Position numbers and translations under genes: made by a program | Notes under the pieces: model-generated | What the model saw: only the letters and a program-made list of their open reading frames with translations | Database searches by the model: none | What the model was told of the DNA's origin: nothing | Shown: positions 8,270 through 33,857 of the stretch, piece after piece | Layout: each line of letters starts with the position of its first letter | Position numbering within the stretch: the stretch's first letter is position 1 | Assembly (NCBI RefSeq): GCF_002119765.1 | Contig: NZ_CP021112.1 | Span: 5,202,501-5,266,500, forward strand | Direction: 5' to 3' | Length of the DNA: 64,000 bases | Origin: Pseudorhodoplanes sinuspersici | GTDB lineage: Bacteria; Pseudomonadota; Alphaproteobacteria; Rhizobiales; Xanthobacteraceae

Positions 8270-11227
8270 TTGAATTCAGTCACACCGATCAAGAGCGCCA
8301 GTTGGTGCGGACAATCAGTCGAGCGCGTGGAAGACGCCGCGCTGCTGACGGGACGCGGCCGTTTCGTCGATGATCTCGGCGTCAGGCCCGGCACGCTGCA
8401 TGCCGCCATTCTGCGTTCGCCGCATGCGCATGCCACCATCACCGCCATTCGCACCGACGCCGCGCGGCAGATGCCGGGCGTCGTCGCGATCCTGACCGGG
8501 CCCGACATCACTGCCAATTCGGCAAGTCTTCCGGTCGGCGTGCGTGCGCCGATCGAATGCTGGCCGATCGCCGTCGATCGCGTGCGCTATGTCGGCGAGC
8601 CGGTCGCCATTGCCGTGGCCGAGAGCCGCTATCTCGCCGAAGACGCGCTCGATCTGATCGAGGTCGATTACGAAACGCTGCCGCCGGTGATCGATCCGCT
8701 TGCAGCGCTCGATAATGCCGGGCCCATCCTGCACGCCGCCTTGGGTTCGAACCTCGTCAACGAGCGCCATTTTCGCTACGGCGATCCGGAGCAAGCCTTT
8801 GCGCAAGCCGCGCGCAAGATCTCCGTCACGATCCGCTATCCGCGCAATTCCTGCACGCCGATCGAAACCTACGGCATCGTCGCCGAATACGATCCGGGCG
8901 AAGACGCGTATGACGTTCTCACCAACTTCATGGGGCCGTTCAGTCTGCACAGCGTAATGGCGCGCGCGCTGAAAGTGCCAGGCAACCGCTTCCGCCTGCG
9001 TACGCCGCCCGATTCCGGCGGCAGTTTCGGCGTCAAGCAAGGCGTCTTTCCTTACGTTGTGCTGATGGGCGTGGCTGCGCGTCTTTGCGGCCGGCCGGTG
9101 AAGTGGATCGAGGATCGGCTGGAGCATCTCGCCGCCTCCGTGTCCGCGACCAATCGCGTCACGACGCTGGAAGCCGCCGTCGACGCCGGAGGCCGCATAA
9201 AGGCGCTGTCCTACGACCAGATCGAGGATGTCGGCGCGCATATCCGCGCGCCCGAGCCGGCAACGCTCTATCGCATGCACGGCAATCTCACCGGTGCCTA
9301 TGACATCCGCCATGTCGCGGTGCGCAACCGCGTGGTGGTCACCAACAAGACGCCGACCGGCCTCAATCGCGGCTTCGGCGGCCCGCAGGTTTATTTCGCG
9401 CTCGAGCGATTGGTGCAGCAGATCGCGATCGAGCTTGGTCTCGACCCGCTCGACGTGATCCGCAAAAATCTCATTCCGTCCGGCGCCTTCCCCTATCGCA
9501 CGGCAAGTGGAGCGCTGCTGGACTCCGGCGATTACGTCAAAGCGTTCGATCTTGCGCTGGCCGATGGCGGTTTCGATGAACTGCGCAAGCGCCAGGCGCA
9601 AGCGCGTGCCGAAGGCCGTCTCTACGGCATCGGACTGACGGCCGCGGTCGAGCCCAGCGTCTCGAATATGGGCTACATCACCACGGTGCTGACGCCGGAA
9701 GAGCGGCGCAAGGCCGGGCCGAAGAATGGTGCGCAGGCGACAGCGACGATATCGCTCGATCCGCTCGGCTCGGTGTCGGTTCATGTCGCGTCCGCCCCCG
9801 CCGGTCAGGGCCATCGCACGGTCCTGGCGCAAATCGTTGCCGATGCATTCGGGCTGAAACCGTCCGACATCCGTGTCGTCGCCGAACTCGATACCGCACG
9901 CGATGCCTGGTCGATTGCCTCGGGCAATTATTCGAGCCGCTTTGCCGCCGCCGTCGGTGGCGCGGCGCATCTCGCCGCCGGCAAGATCAAGGCAAAGCTT
10001 GCGAGGACAGCGGCGGCGCAACTCAATGTGCCGGCCTCGGAGATCGAATTCGCGCACGGCCGCATCCGCGCGCGCGGCAATCCCGACAACGCGATTTCGT
10101 TCTCGCGCCTCGCAGCCGCAAGCCACTGGTCGCCCGGCCTCGTGCCGGAAGAAAACCAGGCGCTGCGCGAGACCGCCTTCTGGACGCCGCCGGAACTCAC
10201 GCCGCCGAACGAGCAGGACGAAATCAACTCCTCGCTGTGTCACGGATTCATCTTCGACTTCTGTGGTGTCGAGATCGATCGCATCACGGGCGCGGTGCGG
10301 ATCGACAAATACGTGACGATGCATGATTGCGGCCGCATTCTGCATCCGGGCATGGTCGAAGGCCAGGTCACCGGCGGCTTCGCGCATGCCGTCGGCGCCG
10401 CGTTGTACGAAGAGTTCGCCTACGGACCGGACGGCGCGTTCCTGACCGGCACCTTCGCCGATTATCTCGTGCCGACGGCGACGGAAGTGCCCTCGCCGGT
10501 CATCCTGCATTTTGAAACGCCGTCGCCGTTCACGCCGCTTGGCACCAAAGGGGTTGGTGAAGGCAATTGCATGAGCACGCCGGTCTGCCTTGCCAACGCG
10601 GTCGCGGACGCGCTCGGGATTGATGCCGTTGATCTACCGCTGACGCCGGCGAAGATTGCCGCCTTCGTGCATGGTGAGGAAAAGCCGCAACGCCATGCCA
10701 AGCCTGCTCCCGCGACATCTGCGAAAGCCGGAGGCCGCGCGCTGCGCGGTCAGGGCGAAGCGCGTGTTGCAGCGTCTCCCGAAGCCGTCTGGGAGATGCT
10801 GCTCGATGCGAACACGCTTGCCTCGATCATTCCCGGTGCGCATGGCGTTCAGAAACTCTCCGACACGCATTTCAAGGCCGATGTAACGCTCGGCGTCGGA
10901 CCGGTTACCGGACGCTACAAGGCGGATATCCAATTGTCCGATCTGGTGCGGCCGAAATCGGTGACATTGGCCGGCGTTGTGACGGGAGCACTCGGCGACG
11001 GGCGCGGCACCGGCCGCATCACCCTGACGCCGACGGATAACGGCGGCACGACCCTCGCTTACGACTACGACGCCGAGATCGGCGGCAAGGTCGCGTCGAT
11101 CGGCGGTCGTCTGCTCGACGGCGCAGCCAAGATGGTGATCCGGCAATTTTTTACGGCGCTGGCGCGGAAAACTGGCGGCGCGCCCAAGCGCGGTTTCTTC
11201 GCACGATGGTTCGGAGGCGGCGCATGA
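8270..11227 (+). CDS. Molybdenum hydroxylase large subunit with fused C-terminal CoxG-like domain
   Basis: 985 residues. Residues 1-790 are a xanthine dehydrogenase-family molybdopterin subunit: QSVERVEDAALLTGRGRFVDD start, GGSFGVK near 250, an XDH-like RGFGGPQ near 367, and the catalytic-glutamate motif KGVGEGN (E near 763). Residues 822-975 form an SRPBCC/CoxG-type domain (ARVAASPEAVWEMLLD, IIPG). The fusion is unusual because CoxG is normally a separate protein. The start is TTG with GAGGGA 5 nt upstream; no better start fits the conserved N-terminus. First gene of a long operon, overlapping the next gene by 4 bp. Substrate unknown; an aromatic or N-heteroaromatic ring is likely. Confidence 0.85.
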   Translation: MNSVTPIKSASWCGQSVERVEDAALLTGRGRFVDDLGVRPGTLHAAILRSPHAHATITAIRTDAARQMPGVVAILTGPDITANSASLPVGVRAPIECWPIAVDRVRYVGEPVAIAVAESRYLAEDALDLIEVDYETLPPVIDPLAALDNAGPILHAALGSNLVNERHFRYGDPEQAFAQAARKISVTIRYPRNSCTPIETYGIVAEYDPGEDAYDVLTNFMGPFSLHSVMARALKVPGNRFRLRTPPDSGGSFGVKQGVFPYVVLMGVAARLCGRPVKWIEDRLEHLAASVSATNRVTTLEAAVDAGGRIKALSYDQIEDVGAHIRAPEPATLYRMHGNLTGAYDIRHVAVRNRVVVTNKTPTGLNRGFGGPQVYFALERLVQQIAIELGLDPLDVIRKNLIPSGAFPYRTASGALLDSGDYVKAFDLALADGGFDELRKRQAQARAEGRLYGIGLTAAVEPSVSNMGYITTVLTPEERRKAGPKNGAQATATISLDPLGSVSVHVASAPAGQGHRTVLAQIVADAFGLKPSDIRVVAELDTARDAWSIASGNYSSRFAAAVGGAAHLAAGKIKAKLARTAAAQLNVPASEIEFAHGRIRARGNPDNAISFSRLAAASHWSPGLVPEENQALRETAFWTPPELTPPNEQDEINSSLCHGFIFDFCGVEIDRITGAVRIDKYVTMHDCGRILHPGMVEGQVTGGFAHAVGAALYEEFAYGPDGAFLTGTFADYLVPTATEVPSPVILHFETPSPFTPLGTKGVGEGNCMSTPVCLANAVADALGIDAVDLPLTPAKIAAFVHGEEKPQRHAKPAPATSAKAGGRALRGQGEARVAASPEAVWEMLLDANTLASIIPGAHGVQKLSDTHFKADVTLGVGPVTGRYKADIQLSDLVRPKSVTLAGVVTGALGDGRGTGRITLTPTDNGGTTLAYDYDAEIGGKVASIGGRLLDGAAKMVIRQFFTALARKTGGAPKRGFFARWFGGGA

Positions 11228-12051
11228 AACCGGCCCGCTTCGACTATCTGCGCGCCACTACACTCGCCGAGGCACATGCTGCGCTCGTGGAAGACGGCAA
11301 CGACGCCCGCATCGTCGCCGGCGGACAGACTCTCATGCCGATGCTGTCGATGCGGCTGGCGCGTCCCAAGGTCCTGGTCGACATCATGCATCTTCCCGAG
11401 CTGCGGAAGATTACCAGCAGCAACAACACCATTCGCGTCGGCGCCGCCGTGCGGCAGGCGGAACTGCTCAGTTGGCCGGAGCTTGCCAAAGAACAGCCTC
11501 TGCTTGCCGCCGCTCTGCCCTGGGTTGGCCATCCACAGACGCGCAGCCGCGGCACGGTCTGCGGCTCGGCCGCGCATGCCGACCCCAGCGCCGAAATCCC
11601 GCTCTCGCTGATCGCGCTCGGCGGCACCGTCGAACTGTCGTCCCGTCGCAAGCGGCGAAGCGTTGCCGCCGAAGATTTTTTCACCGGCATGATGTCGACC
11701 GCGCGTGATCATGACGAGATGATCGAGGCGGTCACCTTCCCCACGGCGAAGCGCGGTTACGGCTACGCGTTCAGTGAGTTCGGCCGCCGTCACGGCGATT
11801 TCGCGATTGTCGCTTGCGCCGCTGTTGCATCAGACAAGGAGACGCGGCTTGCGATTGGCGGCGTGGCCGACCGGCCGTCGACCCGTGAGTTCGGGACGCT
11901 CGAGGGCAGCGCTCTCGACGATGCGCTCAACGATTTCGCGTTCGATCTCGATGCGCGCGACGATCTGCATGCGACCGCGCGTTATCGCCGCGAGCTGGTG
12001 CGCCGGATGGGCCGCGCAACGATCGAGGGGGCCCGCCAATGCCGCGTCTGA
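11224..12051 (+). CDS. Molybdenum hydroxylase FAD-binding (medium) subunit
   Basis: 275 residues; ATG overlaps the previous stop (ATGA). FAD motifs are present: VAGGQTLMPMLSMRLARP near 35-55 and TRSRGTVCGSAAHADPSAE near 105, the usual NRGTIGGSLAHADP region. It passes electrons from the [2Fe-2S] clusters to the acceptor. There is no 4Fe-4S insertion of the 4-hydroxybenzoyl-CoA reductase type, which argues against that enzyme. The 3' end overlaps the small subunit by 13 bp. Confidence 0.88.
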   Translation: MKPARFDYLRATTLAEAHAALVEDGNDARIVAGGQTLMPMLSMRLARPKVLVDIMHLPELRKITSSNNTIRVGAAVRQAELLSWPELAKEQPLLAAALPWVGHPQTRSRGTVCGSAAHADPSAEIPLSLIALGGTVELSSRRKRRSVAAEDFFTGMMSTARDHDEMIEAVTFPTAKRGYGYAFSEFGRRHGDFAIVACAAVASDKETRLAIGGVADRPSTREFGTLEGSALDDALNDFAFDLDARDDLHATARYRRELVRRMGRATIEGARQCRV

Positions 12052-12548
12052 GCGCCGATGCGCGTCATCGCATTCGCTTCACCGTCAATGGACGCGTGAT
12101 GGAAACCGAGGCCGAACCGCGTGCCTTGCTCAGCGATGTCCTGCGCCACGATCTTGCGCTGACCGGAACGCATGTCGGTTGCGAACATGGTGTGTGTGGC
12201 GCCTGCACCATCCAGATCGATGGCGTGCCTGCGCGGTCGTGTCTCACGCTGGCTGTCCAGGCCGATGGCGCCGATGTTCGCACGATCGAAGCATTGGCGC
12301 CGGCTCCCGGCCGATTGTCCGTCTTGCAGGACTCGTTCCGTCGTCATCACGCCCTGCAATGCGGCTTCTGCACGGCGGGCATCCTGATGTCGCTCGACAG
12401 CTATCTCCGCAAACATCCCAACCCGTCCGAAGGCGAGTTGCGGGACTATCTCGGCGGGCATCTGTGCCGCTGCACCGGCTATGTCCCGATCGTTGCCGCG
12501 GCCCTCGACGCCGCGAAAAGACTGCAAGAGGAGCCCGCCCGTGCTTGA
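12039..12548 (+). CDS. Molybdenum hydroxylase [2Fe-2S] (small) subunit
   Basis: 169 residues. Both clusters are visible: plant-type GCEHGVCGACT...RSC and the second domain QCGFCT...LCRCTGY. It completes the L-M-S hydroxylase with the two preceding genes. Unlike the small subunit encoded at 37094, it ends soon after the second cluster (EEPARA) with no extra domain, because here the CoxG-like domain is on the large subunit. Confidence 0.9.
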   Translation: MPRLSADARHRIRFTVNGRVMETEAEPRALLSDVLRHDLALTGTHVGCEHGVCGACTIQIDGVPARSCLTLAVQADGADVRTIEALAPAPGRLSVLQDSFRRHHALQCGFCTAGILMSLDSYLRKHPNPSEGELRDYLGGHLCRCTGYVPIVAAALDAAKRLQEEPARA

Positions 12549-23332: not shown

Positions 23333-23977
23333 TCAGAACGCGTCGGCCTGCGTGCTTGGTTCGGTCGTTCGGAAGGCATCGAGCGTCATGCAGCGATCGG
23401 TGATCGCCAACAGCTTCGGATAAGCGTCCAGCGAACAATTGAACCGCCGCGCGTTGAAAATTTGCGGCACGAGGCAGATATCCGCCATTGTCACCGTATT
23501 GCCGTAACAGAAATCGCCGGACATCCCCTCGCGCGCGAGGTAACCCTCAAGGCCCGACAACCCTTCGGCGATCCAGTGCTCATACCAGGCATTGGTGGCC
23601 GCTTCGTCGGCGCCGAATTGCGCCTTCAGATGCTTCAGCACCCGCACATTGTTGAGCGGATGAATTTCACAACCGATGATTTGCGACACCGCCCGCACAT
23701 AGGCCCGCCCGGCCGGATCCTTCGGCATCAACGGCGGATCGGGATAGACCTCATCGAGATACTCGATGATCGCCATCGACTGGATCAGCGACCGGCCGCC
23801 CTCGACGAGGAGCGGCACCAATCCCTGCGGGTTGATGTCCCGATACGACGGGACCCGGTGCTCCATCTTCGGCAGGCTGACATAATGCGGCTCGTAATCG
23901 AGCCGCTTGTAAGCCAGCGCAATCCTCAGACGGAACGAGGTCGAGGAGCGGAAGAACGTGTAGAGCTGACGTGACAT
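23333..23977 (-). CDS. Zeta-class GST: maleylpyruvate or maleylacetoacetate isomerase
   Basis: 214 residues, the usual length for the family. N-terminal SSTSFRLRIAL is the zeta-class active-site motif (SSxSxRVRIAL), followed by NPQGLVPLL and SMAIIEYLDE. The C-terminal domain has the usual TMADICLVPQ. Such enzymes isomerise maleylpyruvate (gentisate route) or maleylacetoacetate (homogentisate route) with glutathione. The neighbouring oxygenase resembles salicylate 5-hydroxylase, whose product is gentisate, so maleylpyruvate isomerase is the better guess. No ring-cleavage dioxygenase gene is in the window. Read with the ABM-type gene, 6 nt after it. Confidence 0.82.
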   Translation of the reverse strand: MSRQLYTFFRSSTSFRLRIALAYKRLDYEPHYVSLPKMEHRVPSYRDINPQGLVPLLVEGGRSLIQSMAIIEYLDEVYPDPPLMPKDPAGRAYVRAVSQIIGCEIHPLNNVRVLKHLKAQFGADEAATNAWYEHWIAEGLSGLEGYLAREGMSGDFCYGNTVTMADICLVPQIFNARRFNCSLDAYPKLLAITDRCMTLDAFRTTEPSTQADAF

Positions 23978-24508: not shown

Positions 24509-27403
24509 ATGCCGCAGATGGCATGGACGATAGCGGCTTCGTTGAACGAGGTCCCCGAGGGCAAAACCCTTGGCGTGGAAGTCGATGGCGTTCACATCGC
24601 GCTCTACAATCTCGACGGCAAAATCTACGCGACGCACGGAATTTGCACACACGCCCTCGCCCTTCTGTCCGAAGGCTGGATCGAAGACGGCAAGATCGAA
24701 TGTCCGCTGCATCAGGGGCAGTTCGATATTCGCAGTGGAAAGGCATTGTGTTCGCCCGTCACCGAAGACTTGCGGACATTCGCTGTGCGTGTCGACGGCA
24801 ACGACATCCTCGTCGATGTCGATCAGCCGGGGGCCGCCTCACCGCTCAAGCATGTTACGCCCGAACCGGCGGCCTCGGAAAACACAAATCGGTCGGACAA
24901 CACCAATCGCGTGGTGATTGTCGGCGCCGGTCAGGCTGCGGCGGCGGCCATTCGCGCGATGCGCGCCGAGGGTTTCAACGGCAGCATCGATCTCGTCGGC
25001 GCCGAACCGCATCTTCCCTATGAAAGGCCGCCGCTGTCGAAGGAGCTGTTGCTCGGCCAGGCGGACGCTGCATCCGGCGTACGGCTCAGCGAGGCGGATG
25101 CAGCGCAGCACGGCGTGCATCTGCATCTTGGCATTGCGGCGACGTCGGTCGATCCGGCGCAGCGGCAGATCACGCTCGATGATGGCGGTGTGCTGGCCTA
25201 CGACGCGTTGCTGATCGCCACCGGCGGAGAGCCCCGGCGTCTGAGCATTCCCGGCGCCGATCTCGCCGGCGTCCATTATCTGCGGACGATCGAGGATTCG
25301 CTGGCGATTGCAGCGGCCCTTGACGGCGCACATCATGTTGCCGTCGTCGGCGGCGGCTTCATCGGGCTGGAGCTCGCATCGGCAGCGATCACGCGTGGCG
25401 TTGCCGTCACGCTGCTCGAGCGCGAGCCGGAGATCATGGCGCGGATCATGCCCGCGGCCATCGGCGGCGCCTTCCGCGATCTCGCGCGGCGTCATGGCGT
25501 CGATGTGCGCCGCAACGCCACCGTCACCGCCATCACCAAGCGCGGCACACGCCTCGGCGTCATCACCGGTGAGGATGTGGTCGAAGTCGATGCGGTGCTT
25601 GTTGGCATCGGCATGCAGCCCATGCTGAGCCTGGCTTTGCAGGCCGGCTGCGCAACCACGACAGGCGGCATCGCTGTGGATGCGCAGGGGCGCACTTCCG
25701 TGCCGGGAATCTGGGCGGCGGGCGATTGCGCCTTATATCACGATGCCATCGCCGGCCGTCGGATATCGCTCGAAAGCTGGCAGAATGCCGAAGAACAAGG
25801 CGCGGCAGCAGGCCGCTCCATGGCCGGAAACAAGGCGCCGGCTGCGCAAAAGCGGCCATGGTTCTGGACCGACCAGTTCGGCTGCAACATTCAGATGCTG
25901 GGCGTGACTGGCCCGCAAGATGGCGTGGCGTTTGCAGGTTCAGCCCAAGCGGCGCCCGGCGCGATCTATCGCACCTTCGATCGCGCGACCGGCGTGCTGA
26001 CCAGTGTTGTTGCTTTCTCCGACCCGCAGGCCATCCGGGCTGCGCGGGCCGAACTCGACGCCGCAACCCTATACGACCCAGCGGTCCACGGCCCTCTCCT
26101 GTCCGACGAGCGGGAGGACGCCGACACAACGACGGAGGCTAGCCTCATGAATGCCCATCCGAGCCTGTCGCTCACCAAGCGCTATATCTGGCCGGCCGAC
26201 GGCCTGACGCGCATTCCCGATTGGGTCTATACCGATCAGACCATTTATGAGCGCGAGGTCGAGAAGATCTTCCATGGCCGCACGTGGAATTATGTCGCGC
26301 TGGAAGCCGAAGTGCCGAATGCCGGCGACTATATCCGCTCGAATGTCGGGCCGACGCCGGTCGTGGTCGCGCGCGCCGAAGATGGATCGATCAATGTCTT
26401 CGAGAACCGCTGTGCCCATCGCGCAGCTGAGTTCTGCCGCGAGCTGTCCGGCAATGCCAAGGAGTTCGTCTGCCCCTATCATCAATGGTCCTACGACCTG
26501 AAGGGCAATCTTGCGGGCGTTCCGTTCCGGCGGGGCGTTGGCGGCAAAGGCGGCATGCCGGCCGACTTCAAGAATGCAGACCATGGCCTGCGCCGTCTCA
26601 AAGTCACCACACACCGCGGCGTTGTGTTTGCATCCTATTGCGAGGACATGGAGCCGCTCGCCGACTATCTCTCCCCGGAGATCCTGCGCGAGTTCGAAGC
26701 GACCTTCGACGGACGCCGCCTGAAGGTCCTCGGTCATTACCGCCACTCGCTGCCGGGCAATTGGAAGCTCTATCACGAGAACCTGAAAGACCCGTATCAC
26801 GCAACGCTGCTGCACACCTTCCTGGTGACATTCGGTCTTTTGGTGGCCGGCAACAAATCGCTGATGCTCGCCGATCCGAGCGGGCGTCACGGCGTGATGG
26901 CGTCGGCCAAGTCGGACGGCAAAGCTGTGTCCAGCGACGCCAAGAAGGAAATGCGCGCCTACAAGGAAGGCATGACGTTGGCCGATCCGCGCTTCATGGA
27001 TTTCGTCGACGAGTTCGACAGCCCGTGGTCGGTGACCATGGCGACGATCTGGCCCAATCTGATCATCCAGCGCGAGATGAACACGCTCGGCATCCGGCAG
27101 ATCGTCCCCACCGGCCCGCATGAATTCATCATGAAATGGACCATGTTTGGCTATGAAGGCGATACCGAAGAGATGACACGGCATCGCCTGCGGCAAGGCA
27201 ATCTCATGGGTCCCGCAGGCTTCCTCGGCCTGGAAGACAACGAAGCGATCAAGTTCGTCCAGGATGGCATGCTGGGCGTGCCGCATGGCGAACATCTCGT
27301 GAAGCTCGATCCCGCGGTCGAAGCCGGCACCGCCGACAACCTGATTTCGGAATCGGCCATCCGCGCCATGTACAAACACTGGCGTGCGGAAATGGGACTC
27401 TAG
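24509..27403 (+). CDS. Fused Rieske ferredoxin, FAD reductase and ring-hydroxylating oxygenase alpha subunit
   Basis: One open frame of 964 residues. Residues 1-105: Rieske ferredoxin (C46-x-H48, C65-x2-H68). Residues 133-540: FAD/NAD(P)H ferredoxin reductase (VVIVGAGQAAAAA near 134; NAD site VAVVGGGFIGLELA near 278; AGDCALYH near 412). Residues 547-964: oxygenase alpha subunit close to the salicylate 5-hydroxylase/NagG type, with a second Rieske centre (C635-x-H637, C655-x2-H658) and the iron site in NLKDPYHATLLH (bridging D761, H764, H769). A whole electron chain from NAD(P)H to the ring thus lies in one chain. The junction (DEREDADTTTEAS) precedes an internal ATG at 26147 with GGAGG 8 nt upstream, so a separate alpha subunit could also be made. 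The Rieske-reductase pair alone is known (AIFM3-like); the triple fusion is what is odd. A sequencing frameshift cannot be excluded. Confidence 0.85.
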   Translation: MPQMAWTIAASLNEVPEGKTLGVEVDGVHIALYNLDGKIYATHGICTHALALLSEGWIEDGKIECPLHQGQFDIRSGKALCSPVTEDLRTFAVRVDGNDILVDVDQPGAASPLKHVTPEPAASENTNRSDNTNRVVIVGAGQAAAAAIRAMRAEGFNGSIDLVGAEPHLPYERPPLSKELLLGQADAASGVRLSEADAAQHGVHLHLGIAATSVDPAQRQITLDDGGVLAYDALLIATGGEPRRLSIPGADLAGVHYLRTIEDSLAIAAALDGAHHVAVVGGGFIGLELASAAITRGVAVTLLEREPEIMARIMPAAIGGAFRDLARRHGVDVRRNATVTAITKRGTRLGVITGEDVVEVDAVLVGIGMQPMLSLALQAGCATTTGGIAVDAQGRTSVPGIWAAGDCALYHDAIAGRRISLESWQNAEEQGAAAGRSMAGNKAPAAQKRPWFWTDQFGCNIQMLGVTGPQDGVAFAGSAQAAPGAIYRTFDRATGVLTSVVAFSDPQAIRAARAELDAATLYDPAVHGPLLSDEREDADTTTEASLMNAHPSLSLTKRYIWPADGLTRIPDWVYTDQTIYEREVEKIFHGRTWNYVALEAEVPNAGDYIRSNVGPTPVVVARAEDGSINVFENRCAHRAAEFCRELSGNAKEFVCPYHQWSYDLKGNLAGVPFRRGVGGKGGMPADFKNADHGLRRLKVTTHRGVVFASYCEDMEPLADYLSPEILREFEATFDGRRLKVLGHYRHSLPGNWKLYHENLKDPYHATLLHTFLVTFGLLVAGNKSLMLADPSGRHGVMASAKSDGKAVSSDAKKEMRAYKEGMTLADPRFMDFVDEFDSPWSVTMATIWPNLIIQREMNTLGIRQIVPTGPHEFIMKWTMFGYEGDTEEMTRHRLRQGNLMGPAGFLGLEDNEAIKFVQDGMLGVPHGEHLVKLDPAVEAGTADNLISESAIRAMYKHWRAEMGL
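26134..26149 (+). promoter_or_regulatory. Internal ribosome binding site and start codon of the oxygenase alpha part
   Basis: GGAGG (26134-26138), 8 nt, then ATG (26147-26149), which opens the canonical alpha-subunit N-terminus MNAHPSLSLTKRYIW. GAGGCTAGCCTC (26135-26146) is also a perfect 12-bp palindrome. It suggests the alpha subunit was, or still is, started independently. Confidence 0.5.
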
Positions 27404-27406
27404 GTC

Positions 27407-27940
27407 ATGGATCTCGCCGTCAAGCGCACCCCATCGCCCGCTCCGCTCATGGATCCCCGTCTTGAAGCCGTTCTGCTGCGGCACGAGATCGAAACCTTCA
27501 ACGTCCGCTATGCGGCGGCGCTGGATGAGCAGCGCCTCTCCGACTGGACGGACATGTTCACCGACGACGCGCTCTACGTCGTCCTTTCGCGCGAGAATTT
27601 CGACCACAACATGCCGGTCGGCCTGATCTATTGCGAAGGCAAGCCGATGATCCATGATCGCGCTTTCGCATTGAGCGAAACGGCGATGTTCGCGCCGCGC
27701 TACCTGCGGCACATCATCGGAAATCTCGATGTGCTGAGCGAGGAACAGGACGGCATCGTCAAGGCGCGCGCGAACTATGTCGTGCTGCAGGTGCTTTTCG
27801 ATCGCCCCGACGCAACACTGCATCAGGTCGGCGCCTATCACGATGTCTTCCGCCGCGAGAACGGCGTGCTCAAGCTCGCCGAACGCCGCTGCGTCTACGA
27901 TAACCTGCTGGTTCCGAACGCGCTCTGTTTGCCGGTTTGA
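27407..27940 (+). CDS. Ring-hydroxylating dioxygenase beta subunit
   Basis: 177 residues with the NTF2-like fold of beta subunits: RHEIETFNVRYAAALDEQRL and WTDMFTDDALYVVLSRENFD, then the C-terminal VFRRENGVLKLAERRCVYDN. It starts 3 nt after the alpha stop, so the two are co-translated. It forms the structural partner of the oxygenase (alpha3beta3 in this family). Similar in length to NagH-type small subunits. Confidence 0.9.
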   Translation: MDLAVKRTPSPAPLMDPRLEAVLLRHEIETFNVRYAAALDEQRLSDWTDMFTDDALYVVLSRENFDHNMPVGLIYCEGKPMIHDRAFALSETAMFAPRYLRHIIGNLDVLSEEQDGIVKARANYVVLQVLFDRPDATLHQVGAYHDVFRRENGVLKLAERRCVYDNLLVPNALCLPV

Positions 27941-28003
27941 GGCCACATGATCTGCGGACAAACCCCGACAGATACAGGTCCCGCTCGCACCAGGCGAGCG
28001 GCC

Positions 28004-28561
28004 TCAGCTCGGCTGAAACACTGTCCGGCCCAGATGGTTGTTGGCGTCCACAAGCCGCAACAGTCCCGCCATCAATGCTGCCCGCTCCTTCGGCGGCAAC
28101 GGCTCGAGCAAACGGGCCTGCGCGCGCTGCATCGCCTTGAACATTTCGCGGGTGACTTTCTCGCCCGCTGGCGTCAGACGAGCGAGCACAGCTCTGCGGT
28201 CCACCTCGCCTCTGCGGCGCGTCAACAGACCCCGCTGCTCCAGGCGGCGAAGAACATCGGCGACATTGGTGCGATCGATGCCGACCTCGCGCCCGAGCGT
28301 GTGCTGATCGGTATCGGGATTGAGACTGAGCGTCGTCAGCAGCGAGTATTGGACCGGGGTGATGTCGAAGCCGGCGCATTCCTCGAAGAACAGCGCGTAA
28401 TTGATTTGATGCAGCCGGCGGATCAGGAATCCGGGACGGGCCCACAGCGGCATGCTGGCATAGAGAGACCGGTGCTCGACGCTCTTTTTGCGGGCTGGCG
28501 CGGCTTTCTTGGTCCGGACTGGGGTGGTCTTCTTGCTTTTCTTGGATTTGGCCAACGTCAA
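28004..28561 (-). CDS. MarR-family transcriptional regulator
   Basis: 185 residues. A Lys/Ala-rich basic tail (1-27) precedes the winged-helix domain: VQYSLLTTLSLNPDTDQHTL, recognition region LGREVGIDRTNVADVLRRLE and wing GLLTRRRGEVDRRAVLARLT. The start is TTG (28561, or a second TTG two codons on), with GGGAGA upstream. It lies amid five similar operator-like palindromes before catabolic genes and is the obvious candidate to bind them, releasing in the presence of an aromatic ligand or its CoA ester. No copy was found before its own gene. Convergent with the beta-subunit gene. Confidence 0.9.
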   Translation of the reverse strand: MTLAKSKKSKKTTPVRTKKAAPARKKSVEHRSLYASMPLWARPGFLIRRLHQINYALFFEECAGFDITPVQYSLLTTLSLNPDTDQHTLGREVGIDRTNVADVLRRLEQRGLLTRRRGEVDRRAVLARLTPAGEKVTREMFKAMQRAQARLLEPLPPKERAALMAGLLRLVDANNHLGRTVFQPS

Positions 28562-29114
28562 AAATCTCCCTGCGACTTCTCCGGCCGCTCTCTATCACCG
28601 TCCGCTTTCACTCGCATCTCCTTCGTTTTGGAAGATCCCATAAACTCGTCACGGCTCCATCTCCGCGCGTGACCGATTGCAGGCTTTCCCTATGACGGAG
28701 TTCATCAGCCCTGGGCCCGCAAAGAAAATAAGCAGCACGCTGCATAATATAGCGAGTCAGCGAATGTCCGCAATCGATCGGCGCCGCAATCGCCCGGTTC
28801 GTTTCATCGGACATCGCCGGGACTACACCAGATCCATTCTAATATATCTGCGGAATCCTGCAGTTTTTGCCGCAGTCGACCGATCGCCCATATCGAAGAT
28901 GCCCTGACGCCGGTAGACGCCCTGAAGTGGTGCAGCTTTTGCATCGTTCAAATAGGATATATACTGAGTAATATGGTTCAGACATGACCGCACACGGCAC
29001 GACGAACATGGTTCTTGGCAGACATGAAAGCGATTCCGATGGCGCGATGGTCGCGGCCGCAATGCATTTGTCAGCCGTCGTATTTTTCCAGTGAAGAAGA
29101 AGGGGATGGGAACT
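28562..29114. other. Intergenic region between marR-type and TRAP genes
   Basis: About 550 bp, AT-richer than the flanks. Short frames on both strands lack ribosome binding sites and family resemblance. It holds candidate MarR operator 4 (28953-28971) and probably the divergent promoters for the regulator and the TRAP operon. Confidence 0.5.
28953..28971. promoter_or_regulatory. Candidate MarR operator 4, before the TRAP operon
   Basis: TAGGATATATACTGAGTAA, sharing the core TATACTGAGTA with the other sites; the left arm is weaker. It overlaps a TATACT-type -10, about 145 bp before the binding-protein start. Confidence 0.5.
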
Positions 29115-30212
29115 ATGAATCGTCGTAAGCTATTAAAGGGATTGGCGGGCGGGACCGCTGCAACTGCTACGCTCGCTGCACCGGCCATTGCACAGACGCA
29201 GCCGACTGTCCGTTGGCGTATGGCGACGGGCTGGCCGAAAAGCCTCGACACGATCCATGGATCGGCAGAAGAGCTTTGCAAGCGCGTCGGTCAATTGACC
29301 GAAGGCCGCTTTGACATCCGCTGCTTCGCCGGTGGCGAAATCGTTCCGCCGCTGCAGGTTCTCGACGCCGTCCAGAACGGCACGATCGAGTGCGGGCACG
29401 TATTGTCCGCCAATTATATCGGCAAGAGCCCGACCTACGCCTTCGACGCCGGCTTGCCGTTTGGGCTGAATGCGCGGCAACAGGCAGCGTGGCTCTTTGA
29501 AGGCGGCGGATTGCCGCTCATTCGCGACTTCTACAAAAAGACCAATGTCATCCCCTTCCCGTGCGGCAATGTCGGCACTCAGATGGGCGGCTTCTACCGC
29601 AAGGAAATCAACTCCGTGCAGGACCTTCAGGGCCTGAAGATTCGCATCGGCGGTCTGGGCGGTGTGATCCTGCGCAAGCTCGGCGCCGTGCCGCAGCAAT
29701 TGCCGCCGTCCGATATCTATTCCGCCCTGGAGCGCGGCACGATCGACGCGTCGGAATGGATCGGACCATATGACGATGCCAAGCTCGGTTTGAACAAGGT
29801 GGCGAAATTCTATTACGCCCCCGGCTGGTGGGAAGGCAGCGCCGGCATTACCGCGCCGGTCAGCCTGCCGGCGTGGAATGCGCTGCCCGAGCATTTCAAG
29901 ATCGCCTTCGAGACCGCGTGCAACGAACAAATGATGATGATGCTCGCGAAATACGATGCGCGTAATCCGGATGCGCTGCGGCGCATGATCGGCGAAGGCA
30001 CGCAACTGCGTCTCTTCCCGCGCCCGGTGCTCGACGCCTGCTACCAGGCCAGCTTCGAGACCTTCGACGAGTTGTCAGCCAAGGACGCCGACTTCAAGAC
30101 GATCTACGGCCCCTGGAAGCGTTTCCTCGAAAGCTCCAATCCGTGGTTCCGGGTGGCCGAGCAAAGCCTCGACGCCTATCGCTTCTCCCACGATATCCCG
30201 CCATCCAAATGA
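29115..30212 (+). CDS. TRAP transporter solute-binding protein (DctP family), Tat-type signal
   Basis: 365 residues from ATG at 29115, behind a GGGGATGGGA ribosome binding region. The N-terminus NRRKLLKGLAGGTAATATLAAPAIA is a twin-arginine-like signal, as in the DctP branch that folds or dimerises before export. The mature part has WRMATGWPKSLDTIHGSAEEL and the solute-contacting GLKIRIGGLGG region. Encoded with the small and large TRAP permeases. Candidate MarR operator 4 upstream suggests uptake of the same aromatic or organic acid handled by the oxygenase. Confidence 0.9.
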   Translation: MNRRKLLKGLAGGTAATATLAAPAIAQTQPTVRWRMATGWPKSLDTIHGSAEELCKRVGQLTEGRFDIRCFAGGEIVPPLQVLDAVQNGTIECGHVLSANYIGKSPTYAFDAGLPFGLNARQQAAWLFEGGGLPLIRDFYKKTNVIPFPCGNVGTQMGGFYRKEINSVQDLQGLKIRIGGLGGVILRKLGAVPQQLPPSDIYSALERGTIDASEWIGPYDDAKLGLNKVAKFYYAPGWWEGSAGITAPVSLPAWNALPEHFKIAFETACNEQMMMMLAKYDARNPDALRRMIGEGTQLRLFPRPVLDACYQASFETFDELSAKDADFKTIYGPWKRFLESSNPWFRVAEQSLDAYRFSHDIPPSK

Positions 30213-30237
30213 ACCTGCGCATCTGATTGCGCGACCC

Positions 30238-30265
30238 GTGCCGGGCGATCCAAATCGCCCGGCAC
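30238..30265 (+). promoter_or_regulatory. Strong hairpin between TRAP binding-protein and permease genes
   Basis: Perfect 12-bp stem GTGCCGGGCGAT / ATCGCCCGGCAC with a CCAA loop, in the 161-nt gap after the binding-protein stop. No T-tract follows. It fits a partial terminator or mRNA-protecting stem that raises binding protein over permease, as is common in importer operons. Confidence 0.55.
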
Positions 30266-30373
30266 ATCTTCATTTGCAGATCGATACGCCATTCGCTTTG
30301 CGAGCCTGCGGTGAACAGGGCAGCGAATGTCAAATCCTCCCCACGAGATCGATCTGCAACAAAGGATGGATTG

Positions 30374-30922
30374 ATGCGTGCTTTGATGGCCTTGAGCCGC
30401 GGCATTGATGCCTTGAGTGCGGCCTTCGGCAAGATTGCGGACTGGATGGTGGCAGCGGCCTGTCTCATCAGCGCCGCCAATGCCGTGATCCGCTACAGTC
30501 TGAGCAACAGCTCGAACGCCTGGCTGGAAGCGCAATGGTATCTTCTGGCGGGCATGGTCATGCTCGGCGCCAGCTACACGCTGTTCCGCAACGGGCATGT
30601 CCGCGTCGATCTGCTGTACAGCACCTACAGCACCCGCACGCGTCTGTATGTCGACCTGTTCGGCATGACCTTCTTTCTGCTGCCGACCACCATCCTGCTG
30701 ACCTGGATGACCTGGCCATTCTTCGTCACCAGCTGGTTGTCGGACGAAGCCTCCTCGAATGCCGGCGGGCTGCTGCGATGGCCAGTGAAGCTGATCCTGC
30801 CCCTCGGCTTTCTGCTGCTCACGTTGCAGGGCTTTTCGGAAATCATCAAACGCATCGCGCTGTTGCGGGGCATGGATCCGCAAACCGAAGTCGTGACCGA
30901 TTATCAACGACCGGACCAATGA
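30374..30922 (+). CDS. TRAP transporter small permease (DctQ family)
   Basis: 182 residues from ATG at 30374, with AAAGGATGG upstream. Four hydrophobic segments and the conserved NAWLEAQWYLLAGMVMLGASYTL and GHVRVDLLY region of DctQ. An in-frame upstream start would add 49 unlike residues through the hairpin and is rejected. Confidence 0.88.
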   Translation: MRALMALSRGIDALSAAFGKIADWMVAAACLISAANAVIRYSLSNSSNAWLEAQWYLLAGMVMLGASYTLFRNGHVRVDLLYSTYSTRTRLYVDLFGMTFFLLPTTILLTWMTWPFFVTSWLSDEASSNAGGLLRWPVKLILPLGFLLLTLQGFSEIIKRIALLRGMDPQTEVVTDYQRPDQ

Positions 30923-30965
30923 TCATTTCCCCTGTACCTGCCGATCTCGTGAAAGATACCGCCCG

Positions 30966-32381
30966 ATGTTGACTGTAGAGCATATGCCGCCGCTCATGTT
31001 CGGCGGCATCGTCGTGTTCCTTTTGATCGGCTTTCCGGTTGCTTTCTCGCTTGCCGCGGTCGGGCTGTTCTTCGGCTTCCTGTCGGTCCATCTCGGCTTC
31101 TTTCCGGAGGTCTATCTCGGCAATCTGCCGCTGCGCGTGTTCGGCATTCTGTCGAACGATCTGCTGCTGGCGATTCCGTTCTTCACGCTGATGGGCGCGA
31201 TCCTCGAACGCAGCGGCCTGGCAGAAGACCTTCTGGAGGGAACGGGCCAGCTCTTCGGCGGCGTTCCGGGAGGCCTCGCTTATGCCGTGGTTATTGTGGG
31301 GGCCATTCTCGGCGCCATCACCGGCACCGTCGCCGCGTCGGTTATTGCGATGGGCATGATCTCGCTGCCGATCATGATACGCTACGGCTACGACATGCGC
31401 ATTGCAACCGGCGTGATCGCCGCATCGGGCACGATCACACAGATCATTCCGCCCTCACTCGTCCTCATCATTTTGGCCGATCAGCTCGGCCGCTCTGTTG
31501 GCGACATGTATGCCGGCGCGATCGGCCCAGCGATTCTTCAGGTGCTGCTGTTCCTTGCCTTTGTCACCGTCGTGGCGCTGATTGCGCCGCATCGCGTGCC
31601 GCCACTGCCGAAGGAAGCTCGTAAACAGCGAGGCTGGCCGCTGATCCGGCGCGTTCTTTGGGGCATGGTGCCCTCCATTATCCTGATCTTCATTGTGGTC
31701 GGGACGATCTTCATGGGGCTCGCCACCCCGACCGAAGCCGGCGCGATGGGTGCCGTCGGCGCCGCCATTCTTGCTGCGCTCAACCGCCGTTTGACCTTCG
31801 CGTTGATCAATCAGGCCCTGCAGAACACCATGCGCATCACCTCGATGGTGATCTTCATCCTGATCGGCTGCACCGTGTTCAGCCTCGTCTTTCAGGGTGT
31901 GGACGGCTCACGCTGGATCGAGCATCTGCTCAGCCACGTACCCGGCGGACAGACCGGCTTCCTGATCTTCGTCAATGTCTTCGTGTTCTTTCTCGCCTTC
32001 TTCCTCGACTTCTTCGAGATCGCCTTCATCATCGTTCCGCTGCTGGCGCCGGTGGCCGACAAGCTCGGCATCGATCTCATCTGGTTCGGCGTTCTGCTTT
32101 GCGTCAACATGCAGACGAGCTTCATGCATCCGCCGTTCGGCTTCGCGCTTTTCTATCTGCGGGGCATTGCTCCGAAAGAAGTGTTGACGCGCGATATCTA
32201 TCTTGGCGCCGTACCCTGGGTCGGGTTGCAACTCGTGTTGGTTGCGATCGTAATCGTCTGGCCCGGCAGCGTCACCTACTGGCTCGATAAACGCGCGAAC
32301 GTGGATCCATCGACGATCCGCATCGAACTTCCGAAGACCGACAGCGGCGAGAACGACGCTCCGGCCTTGAGTTTCAAATAA
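30966..32381 (+). CDS. TRAP transporter large permease (DctM family)
   Basis: 471 residues with 12 or so membrane segments. DctM signatures: AIPFFTLMGAILERSGLAEDL, IVGAILGAITGTVAASVIAM and IPPSLVLIILADQ. C-terminal hydrophilic tail of about 35 residues (LDKRANVDPSTIRIELP). Completes a P-Q-M sodium-driven importer. Confidence 0.92.
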   Translation: MLTVEHMPPLMFGGIVVFLLIGFPVAFSLAAVGLFFGFLSVHLGFFPEVYLGNLPLRVFGILSNDLLLAIPFFTLMGAILERSGLAEDLLEGTGQLFGGVPGGLAYAVVIVGAILGAITGTVAASVIAMGMISLPIMIRYGYDMRIATGVIAASGTITQIIPPSLVLIILADQLGRSVGDMYAGAIGPAILQVLLFLAFVTVVALIAPHRVPPLPKEARKQRGWPLIRRVLWGMVPSIILIFIVVGTIFMGLATPTEAGAMGAVGAAILAALNRRLTFALINQALQNTMRITSMVIFILIGCTVFSLVFQGVDGSRWIEHLLSHVPGGQTGFLIFVNVFVFFLAFFLDFFEIAFIIVPLLAPVADKLGIDLIWFGVLLCVNMQTSFMHPPFGFALFYLRGIAPKEVLTRDIYLGAVPWVGLQLVLVAIVIVWPGSVTYWLDKRANVDPSTIRIELPKTDSGENDAPALSFK

Positions 32382-32438: not shown

Positions 32439-32462
32439 TTATTGGACGGACAAGAAACCAGA

Positions 32463-33857
32463 ATGGCCCTGACACGCACGCAGATGAACGATCGGGCGAA
32501 AGCAGGCAGCATCGAGGAAACGATCGCCGATACGCTGGACCGCTGCGAGCGCAGCCAGTCGGAGCTCAATGCTTTTGCCCGCATTGATCGCGACGGTGCA
32601 CTCGCGACTGCGCGCAAACTTGACGCGGGCGAACAATCGGGAAAACTCGCCGGCATTCCGATCAGCGTGAAGGACATTCTCAATGTCGGCGGTCTGCCGA
32701 CCCATTGGGGATCGCGGCTGATGCAGGATGCAGCGCCTGCCGCGGCCGATACGGTCGCCGTCGCGCGTCTCCGCGCCGCCGGTGCCGTCATCATCGGCAA
32801 GAGCACGACGACAGAATTCGCGCACACCATGATGGGCTCCTCGCCCCACACCGGCCTGACCGTCAATCCCTGGAATGCCGACATAACATGCGGCGGATCG
32901 AGCTGCGGCGGCGGCGTCTCCGTCGCCGCGGGCCTCGTTCGCATGGCACTGACCACCGACGCCGGCGCATCGACACGCTTGCCGGCGGCCTGCACCGGCG
33001 TTCTCGGATTGAAGCCGACCCTCGGCCGCATCCCGCATGATCTCGTGCCGGAAGGCTTTGCCAATTTCATTCATCTCGGCGCTATCACCCGCAACGTCGC
33101 GGACATGGCGCTCGCCCTTGAGGCGATGGCGGGACCAGCATCGAGCGATCCGCATTCGCTCGCCGTGCCGCCGATCGACACCTCGCGCATCAACGCCCAG
33201 GCCGGAAATCTTGCGGGCAAACGCATCGGCCTGCTCATGCAGGTCGGCAACGCCCGCATCAGCCGCACGATGACGGACACGATACGGCGCGTGGCCAAGT
33301 CCTTTGAAGACTTCGGCGCTTCCGTCGCGGAGATCGACTGGACGATCGACAACCCCGAGCCGACCTGGCGCATCCTGCAGCAATCGAACTGGGCGGCGCG
33401 GCTGGGCAAGACCATCGACGAGGTCGAGAGCAAGATCGAGCCAAGCCTGACCGAAGGCGTGCGCATCGGCCTGTCTTATTCCGGTCAGGATCTCCAGGGC
33501 GCTCTCAATCGCCGCACCGCCATTTTCCGGCATGTGCAGAAACTGTTTGAAGGCTTCGACTTCCTTCTGACGCCGGTAATGAGCCGCGAACCGCTGGATG
33601 CGCTGCACAAGCCGCTCGACCCGATCAGCATCGACGGCGAGGTGGTCGGCGACATGCGGCGCGAATGGACGCCCTATCTCAATCTTTTCGACCTGAGCGG
33701 ACATCCCGCCATCAGCGTGCCGGCCGGATTGTCGGACAGCGGCGTTCCGCTGGCCTTCCAGCTCGTCGCCCCCTGGTATGCGGAAGAAAGATTGCTGTCG
33801 GCCGTCGCTTTCTATGAGCAGCAGCATCCCTGGCCACTTCTCGACGCCCGTTCGTGA
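32463..33857 (+). CDS. Amidase-signature family hydrolase
   Basis: 464 residues from ATG at 32463 (a TTG at 32442 is possible). The Ser-cisSer-Lys triad is visible: K70 in GIPISVKDI, S147 in GGSSCGGG and nucleophile S170 in TTDAGASTRLPAA. The usual GGSSGGS loop reads GGSSCGGG here, with a cysteine after the cis-serine. It hydrolyses an amide to acid and ammonia or amine. Placed before a molybdenum hydroxylase operon and behind a MarR-type site, it may open an aromatic amide before ring hydroxylation (inferred). Hydrazide, carbamate or acylated amine substrates are alternatives. Confidence 0.87.
   Translation: MALTRTQMNDRAKAGSIEETIADTLDRCERSQSELNAFARIDRDGALATARKLDAGEQSGKLAGIPISVKDILNVGGLPTHWGSRLMQDAAPAAADTVAVARLRAAGAVIIGKSTTTEFAHTMMGSSPHTGLTVNPWNADITCGGSSCGGGVSVAAGLVRMALTTDAGASTRLPAACTGVLGLKPTLGRIPHDLVPEGFANFIHLGAITRNVADMALALEAMAGPASSDPHSLAVPPIDTSRINAQAGNLAGKRIGLLMQVGNARISRTMTDTIRRVAKSFEDFGASVAEIDWTIDNPEPTWRILQQSNWAARLGKTIDEVESKIEPSLTEGVRIGLSYSGQDLQGALNRRTAIFRHVQKLFEGFDFLLTPVMSREPLDALHKPLDPISIDGEVVGDMRREWTPYLNLFDLSGHPAISVPAGLSDSGVPLAFQLVAPWYAEERLLSAVAFYEQQHPWPLLDARS

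Follow-up and report, generated by a model that had tools for sequence, protein, structure and literature searches.

A Rieske oxygenase gene of Pseudorhodoplanes sinuspersici that joins ferredoxin, reductase and alpha subunit in one frame, with a probable internal start for free alpha

Rieske oxygenase systems built from separate proteins pass electrons along a standard chain, from NAD(P)H to the FAD of a reductase, then to a ferredoxin, the Rieske cluster of the oxygenase alpha subunit and finally its iron. We analysed a gene in a 64,000-nucleotide stretch of the Pseudorhodoplanes sinuspersici genome (the window), in which the ferredoxin, the reductase and the complete alpha subunit are encoded in one frame, directly followed by a gene for the beta subunit. 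Among described systems, PicB1B2B3B4 of Alcaligenes faecalis JQ135 and Bordetella bronchiseptica RB50 (PMC10142695) resembles this locus in its set of components and in their ferredoxin-reductase-alpha-beta order. In that report, the picolinate gene set is PicA, PicC-G and PicR, picB1B2B3B4 clusters with picA1A2A3, and PicB is a 6-hydroxypicolinate monooxygenase (PMC10142695). Two Alcaligenes loci (L109 and L111 in our numbering), from which this gene order was read, encode an alpha subunit approximately 69% identical to that of the window and have a molybdenum hydroxylase neighbour. PicB is encoded by four separate genes, whereas in the window three of them are merged into one, with an internal start signal.

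Other systems share parts of this design. By sequence, the nearest solved chains were NagG, the terephthalate dioxygenase (TPADO) alpha subunit and then BphA4/TodA-type reductases; by fold, reductases ranked first (3lxd, BphA4, toluene dioxygenase reductase), followed by TPADO and NagG. The window alpha has the same fold as the NagGH salicylate 5-hydroxylase and TPADO (7c8z, 7q04) and belongs to the same subfamily. Both of those systems use separate redox proteins, and their substrates differ. Anthranilate 1,2-dioxygenase (AndAa-d) has the same component types and supplies the best NCBIfam names, but all four scores fell well short of the curated equivalog cut-offs (399 against 750, 281 against 650, 109 against 150 and 130 against 230 bits). 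Chains that we take to be AIFM3-like carry ferredoxin and then reductase in one polypeptide with no oxygenase attached; such Rieske-reductase chains in the family match fused residues ~10-510 at 33-39% identity. Self-sufficient P450s (BM3, CYP116B) do combine an oxygenase with its redox chain in one polypeptide. They have an unrelated fold and no separate beta subunit, while the window gene probably gives a second product from its internal start. According to a 2025 review, no self-sufficient Rieske oxygenase has been identified so far (PMC12445004). Our searches of the openly licensed literature turned up no natural gene that fuses ferredoxin, reductase and alpha, nor any report of an internal start in such a gene, which is not proof of absence; a first-pass annotation of this DNA had also known of no triple fusion of this order. 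We regard the gene as a Rieske oxygenase of new natural architecture, probably with a gene within the gene.

Architecture, distribution and origin of the fused gene

The locus contains the following features (window coordinates):

24509..27403, + strand: fused ferredoxin-reductase-alpha gene, one frame; probable start ATG 24518 (M4)
24518..24820, + strand: Rieske ferredoxin domain, residues 4-104; C46, H48, C65, H68; Pfam Rieske 6-91
24821..24901, + strand: linker 1, residues 105-131; poorly conserved
24902..26083, + strand: FAD/NAD(P)H ferredoxin reductase domain, residues 132-525; Pyr_redox_2, Reductase_C
26084..26176, + strand: linker 2, residues 526-556; poorly conserved; carries the internal start signal
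26134..26138, + strand: internal Shine-Dalgarno (SD) sequence GGAGG, 8 nt upstream of the internal ATG, read from sequence
26147..27403, + strand: internal open reading frame (ORF) for a putative free alpha subunit, 418 aa; ATG 26147 (M547)
26177..27403, + strand: oxygenase alpha domain, residues 557-964; Rieske C635, H637, C655, H658; Fe site D761, H764, H769
27407..27940, + strand: oxygenase beta subunit; Ring_hydroxyl_B (PF00866), 9.2e-17

The frame is free of stops over 964 codons, and Pfam finds Rieske (6-91), Pyr_redox_2 (134-431), Reductase_C (451-525), a second Rieske stretch and Ring_hydroxyl_A (737-962) in this order. The first-pass annotation had described such a continuous frame with a beta gene close behind, and had named the ferredoxin ligands C46/H48 and C65/H68, the iron site D761/H764/H769 and a Rieske centre of alpha's own (here C635/H637/C655/H658). 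All of this held. The junction at 26050-26160, which it had wanted checked for a missed stop or indel, reads through without a stop. Its length of 964 residues is right for the frame but probably not for the product: the best first start aligns exactly at M4 in 49/51 fused genes, so the real product probably has 961 residues. As in the Rieske alpha/beta class, the alpha part has a Rieske centre and 2-His-1-Asp ligands, and a beta gene is adjacent; the class relies on separate proteins for electron transfer, whereas here ferredoxin and reductase sit inside the alpha chain.

We compared 93 loci: the window locus, nine from the family sample, 80 named loci (the best 80 matches, on genome contigs) and three plasmid loci. 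Of these, 47 were triple fusions, 6 joined ferredoxin to alpha with no reductase and 40 had alpha alone in its frame. Adding 13 further fused loci and removing duplicates gave a set of 51 fused genes (left out were L026, L028, L033, L046, L120, L123, L136, L142 and L143); L026, L028 and L033 were also left out of the tree and the first linker counts. In all 44 aligned fused genes both Rieske ligand sets, D761/H764/H769 and the reductase residues G141, G281, G283, G405 and D406 are invariant. D919, invariant among them as well, is the probable third Fe ligand; the roles of the alpha Asp residues (bridging or Fe-binding) are presumed from our knowledge of the family. Rieske, Pyr_redox_2, Reductase_C and Ring_hydroxyl_A were all found in 42/42 aligned members of the 51. 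Mean identity to the window over the 44 genes was 55% for the ferredoxin, 52% for the reductase and 81% for alpha, and only 13% and 17% for linkers 1 and 2. In the AlphaFold model the domains are folded and the predicted local distance difference test (pLDDT) score is <50 at 111-130 and 534-573, in the linkers (mean pLDDT 77.4); the relative placement of domains is uninformative because the predicted template modelling score (pTM) is only 0.55. A 630-codon open frame runs antisense to alpha and beta (26069-27961, - strand), which we interpret as a shadow ORF, the gene opposite being GC-rich.

The full single-frame fusion was present in 16/391 genomes of the family sample, this genome included; the other 15 have co-linear homologs over almost the full 964 residues at 65-75% identity. 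Its distribution is patchy, since none of the first-drawn 60 relatives was fused (0/60), including all 7 other genomes of the genus. The order, class and phylum samples gave 3/347, 6/385 and 3/398, this genome being counted each time. Named hosts include Bradyrhizobium, Xanthobacter, Rhodopseudomonas, Azospirillum, Roseomonas, Rhodovarius, Paracoccus and Alloalcanivorax. The record of L067 is labelled Bacteroidota and is probably a mislabelled metagenome-assembled genome (MAG). A full-length-looking tblastn match on the Caballeronia SBC2 plasmid (L117) was rejected, as the genes are split and the alignment crosses stops; the SBC1 plasmid likewise looks full length, by tblastn only.

The tree was built from 90 alpha domains and 4 outgroups. 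It places 55 rows in a fused group (44 triple, 6 ferredoxin-alpha, 5 alpha only) and 35 alpha-only rows, mostly from Burkholderiales and Pseudomonas, in a group beside it. In 33 of these 35 a separate reductase lies just upstream, with the gene order of the fusion. Fusion of separate genes is likelier than fission but unproven, because the fused/split bipartition has support of just 89/89 and the outgroups are distant, on very long branches; both points weigh against our reading of the origin. In the fused clade the reductase is in frame with alpha in 45/45 genes where they adjoin, compared with 12/33, about one third, in the split group. Linker 2 went through no fewer than 23 changes of length on the tree, and the frame was still kept; as these changes were counted among one-frame genes, that they involve whole codons is partly so by construction, and the unbiased figure is 45/45. 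The fusion is under selection.

The ferredoxin-alpha form requires three changes on the tree, and the reductase was therefore probably lost at least three times. The six genes of this form (L039, L040, L041, L048, L051, L058) all come from MAGs; L039 is cut at a contig end and its ferredoxin is partial. Four alpha-only members of the fused clade have no ferredoxin or reductase seen in the locus. In Mangrovicoccus ximenensis (L073:5632-7236) the gene is truncated at its 5' end inside the reductase, is still in frame and keeps alpha with the internal start.

The start signal in linker 2

Linker 2 of the window gene contains GGAGG, 8 nt and an ATG (26134-26149), 10 codons ahead of the first aligned alpha position. 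This internal start, M547 at 26147, was missing from the first-pass annotation. Among the first 44 genes, 43 have a start codon with an SD sequence in linker 2 (36 ATG, 7 GTG), while just 8.5% of the other in-frame start codons of those genes have an SD word. In the full set the signal was found in 49/51 genes and in 19/20 clusters at 75% identity, against 3.7/20 clusters expected from codon shuffling (tail 9e-15). Linker 1, used as a control, had such a start in 1/51 genes and 0/20 clusters, where shuffling expects 8.4/51. Redrawing every codon of the linker without altering the amino acids put the expectation for a 5-nt SD with a start at 8.2/20 clusters, where 16 were seen (tail 1.3e-6); for a 4-nt SD the expectation was 11.2/20, with 19 seen (tail 2.7e-6). 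The conserved start and SD thus exceed what the amino acids give.

An identical search, as a positive control, found the alpha SD-start in 33/33 split genes (not de-duplicated). Predicted SD pairing averages -7.5 kcal/mol at the internal site and -5.9 kcal/mol at the ferredoxin start, and is stronger at the internal site in 38/49 genes. On the tree, the signal shifted its place with respect to alpha no fewer than 13 times; these shifts were counted only among signal-bearing genes, so that the SD accompanies each of them is partly by construction. Eight held-out genes were fetched after the pattern had been noticed; five of them fall into clusters at 75% identity that already included a gene. 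Seven of the eight pass the aligned test, and in L124 a looser local test picks up no more than a weak GTG site. Of the six ferredoxin-alpha genes, two keep a weak signal and four show no internal SD-start.

Several observations count against taking the signal for a used start. The tail values assume that clusters are independent. At the level of genes, 28.7/51 signals are expected from the amino acids alone, where 49 are seen; over half of the signal is expected because the acidic linker favours GAG/GGA strings. An earlier test (24.6/44 expected, 41 seen) chose the best-scoring site, which favours the observed value, and this choice also enters the count of length and position changes. When redrawing was repeated without it, the excess remained. 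Further start codons accompanied by SD-like strings were seen at residues 890-950 (44/44 genes) and 790-850 (28-29 genes). Recurrence alone proves nothing, because these sites lie inside highly conserved coding sequence, and we read them as by-products of the protein rather than as starts. By the aligned test, L067 and L124, which form a single cluster, have no internal start. As the only fused cluster of this kind, they are a natural control for the two-product model. One gene table does list the internal ORF: on a Paracoccus seriniphilus plasmid (L115:11851-14817) the full triple-fusion frame is present, and the PLSDB table, incomplete by its own description, shows only an alpha coding sequence from the internal start.

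Taken as a sequence signal, the linker start indicates that free alpha is most likely also made from the fused gene. The first-pass annotation had supposed that the fusion needs only the beta subunit. The gene does carry its own electron chain, but this account is incomplete, because in 49/51 genes alpha is still preceded by a ribosome-binding site with a start codon, so free alpha is probable.

Three other accounts of the gene were weighed against these data. If the fused frame came from faulty sequencing or assembly, or from gene decay with loss of a stop codon, one might point to several split relatives whose reductase and alpha share a frame and are separated only by a stop and a short spacer (the 12/33 above). 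Sequencing error is excluded because 15 other genomes hold the co-linear frame, and decay fits neither the intact ligand sets (44/44) nor the maintained frame (45/45). The first-pass annotation had named homologs always split at the junction as an observation that would speak against its triple fusion; 51 non-duplicate full-length fusions were found instead. The artefact reading is refuted by these homologs, and we give this account practically no credence. It is also very improbable that reductase and ferredoxin are vestigial, with only internally started alpha at work on outside electron donors: the six reductase-less genes, the four loci with neither partner and the truncated L073 would agree with this, but the fused genes show no variation in their FAD/NAD motifs or ferredoxin ligands (44/44) and have kept their frame. 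Somewhat more plausible, though still unlikely, is that only the full-length fusion is made and the signal is an unused by-product of an acidic, purine-rich linker. The number of SD-like strings expected from acidic residues alone, the similar sites in conserved coding sequence and the L067/L124 cluster all favour it. It is opposed by the excess over synonymous redrawing, by an initiator codon kept in a poorly conserved linker, by the near absence of such starts from the equally unconserved linker 1 and by the loss of the signal in most reductase-less genes.

Gene neighbourhood and substrate

The oxygenase is most likely a fused PicB, 6-hydroxypicolinate 3-monooxygenase-like and not a generic dioxygenase, because the neighbours of its relatives, as judged by sequence, are the picolinate set PicA, PicC-G and PicR. 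The dioxygenase label of the first-pass annotation is therefore probably wrong, as many relatives lie in picolinate clusters, where PicB is a monooxygenase. The fused Paracoccus and the split Variovorax loci both contain a three-subunit molybdenum hydroxylase, an amidohydrolase, an alpha/beta hydrolase, an isochorismatase-type hydrolase and MarR, with a maleate isomerase additionally in Paracoccus. A 2,5-dihydroxypyridine dioxygenase is annotated in the Variovorax locus; its Paracoccus homolog is annotated as leucyl aminopeptidase. Genes of the lower pic pathway are within reach in 17/36 fused loci and 25/35 split-clade loci. A picolinate enzyme has been placed in the TphA2/NagG subfamily (PMC9060491), and NagG and TphA2-type chains are the nearest solved relatives of the window alpha. 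An assignment to the Rieske oxygenase of auxin degradation (iad), hinted at by the MarR neighbour and by Variovorax, was dropped, as the neighbourhoods hold pyridine-pathway genes.

The neighbours of the fused gene in the window are:

23333..23977, - strand: glutathione-dependent isomerase-like glutathione S-transferase (GST); maiA equivalog, 264.7 against a cut-off of 171 bits
23984..24409, - strand: ABM-type small protein, divergent neighbour; weak Pfam ABM match
28004..28561, - strand: MarR-family regulator; shares 44% identity with the MarR encoded in the pic-type locus of Variovorax
29091..32381, + strand: tripartite ATP-independent periplasmic (TRAP) transporter, three genes; the first is PF03480 DctP, the other two were assigned by eye from sequence and position
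32442..33857, + strand: amidase; PF01425
33893..38248, + strand: PicA-like molybdenum hydroxylase of three subunits; its Mo subunit shares 57% identity with the one in the Variovorax locus

We compared 82 related loci, with L046 excluded, over flanks of at most 6 kb, or 10-12 kb in the three loci from plasmids; some flanks were shorter because the contig ended. The ABM gene was found in 21 loci, picC/D/F/G in 42 and both in 0 within the flanks covered. The two sets are perhaps alternative follow-up routes. One may speculate that the ABM/GST/amidase route would open a ring that has not first been decarboxylated, use the GST for cis-trans isomerisation and include hydrolysis of an amide. GST and amidase accompany the ABM gene in 13 loci.

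The window itself speaks less clearly for picolinate than its relatives do. Many relatives show both the PicB order and pic genes; the window has only the PicA-like and MarR genes, with no picC-G near the fused gene and the ABM-type protein, maleylacetoacetate-isomerase-type GST and amidase in their place. Its genome does encode a 63% homolog of 2,5-dihydroxypyridine dioxygenase ~2.7 Mb away, but the best PicC match in it is just 48% identical, and the frame of that match includes one stop. The matching of PicB1-B4 with ferredoxin, reductase, alpha and beta was itself deduced from the order read in L109 and L111, where L111 (A. faecalis AU14) stood in for the JQ135 sequences. The substrate may differ because picC-G are not nearby and the best PicC match is only 48%. 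We regard it as possible, though doubtful, that the substrate of the fusion is not 6-hydroxypicolinate but a different aryl acid, one resembling salicylate, anthranilate or terephthalate. That the best solved relative is the salicylate 5-hydroxylase NagG and the best NCBIfam model the anthranilate dioxygenase AndAc would fit such a substrate, as would the replaced picC-G and a salicylate-to-gentisate route suggested by the GST. The And models, however, all score far below their cut-offs, closer relatives share pic clusters, and the window retains its PicA-like hydroxylase and MarR gene, all of which favours PicB.

Elsewhere in the window, at 8270-12548, there is a second molybdenum hydroxylase operon, of which the large subunit was scanned. 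Beside it, lookalikes of an acyl-CoA ligase, an enoyl-CoA hydratase and a branched-chain-type ATP-binding cassette (ABC) transporter were noted by eye.

Working model and meaning for the family

On balance we consider it probable that the locus encodes a fused PicB-group oxygenase with a separate beta subunit and, most likely, a second product from the conserved internal start. Separate ferredoxin, reductase and alpha genes would have merged into one with the operon order kept, leaving beta separate. NAD(P)H would reduce the FAD of the reductase domain, and the tethered ferredoxin could then swing on its flexible linkers between FAD and the alpha Rieske cluster, from which electrons would reach the mononuclear iron. 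As all needed domains and motifs are present, we infer from this anatomy that the fusion may be self-sufficient.

Translation from the internal start would in addition yield free alpha. We infer two products, full fusion and free alpha, which would assemble with beta into mixed alpha3beta3 hexamers where only some alpha subunits carry the redox arm. Internal translation is known from CRISPR type I-D, where Cas11d, the C-terminal domain of Cas10d, is made separately from an internal start and joins the same complex as an additional subunit (PMC9123187). The proteins are unrelated, and internal translation was demonstrated there, whereas for the fused oxygenase it is read from sequence. In the alpha3beta3 cumene dioxygenase, the ferredoxin is reported to dock at the alpha/beta boundary (PMC9361823). 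Three large arms on a single hexamer may be crowded, and a mix of armed and free alpha would relieve this; loss of the start alongside loss of the bulky reductase fits the idea, in six genes only. We lean towards the view that this is a self-sufficient Rieske family that makes armed and unarmed alpha by a conserved internal start, so that translation would set the ratio of arms to active sites and ease crowding.

Gene lists can hide such a fusion, as the (incomplete) table of the Paracoccus seriniphilus plasmid illustrates by showing the alpha part only. A natural family of at least 51 members, with relatives in several fusion states, offers ready templates and linkers. The internal start hints at a reason for which plain one-to-one fusions may perform poorly, as natural systems seem to combine fused alpha with the free form.

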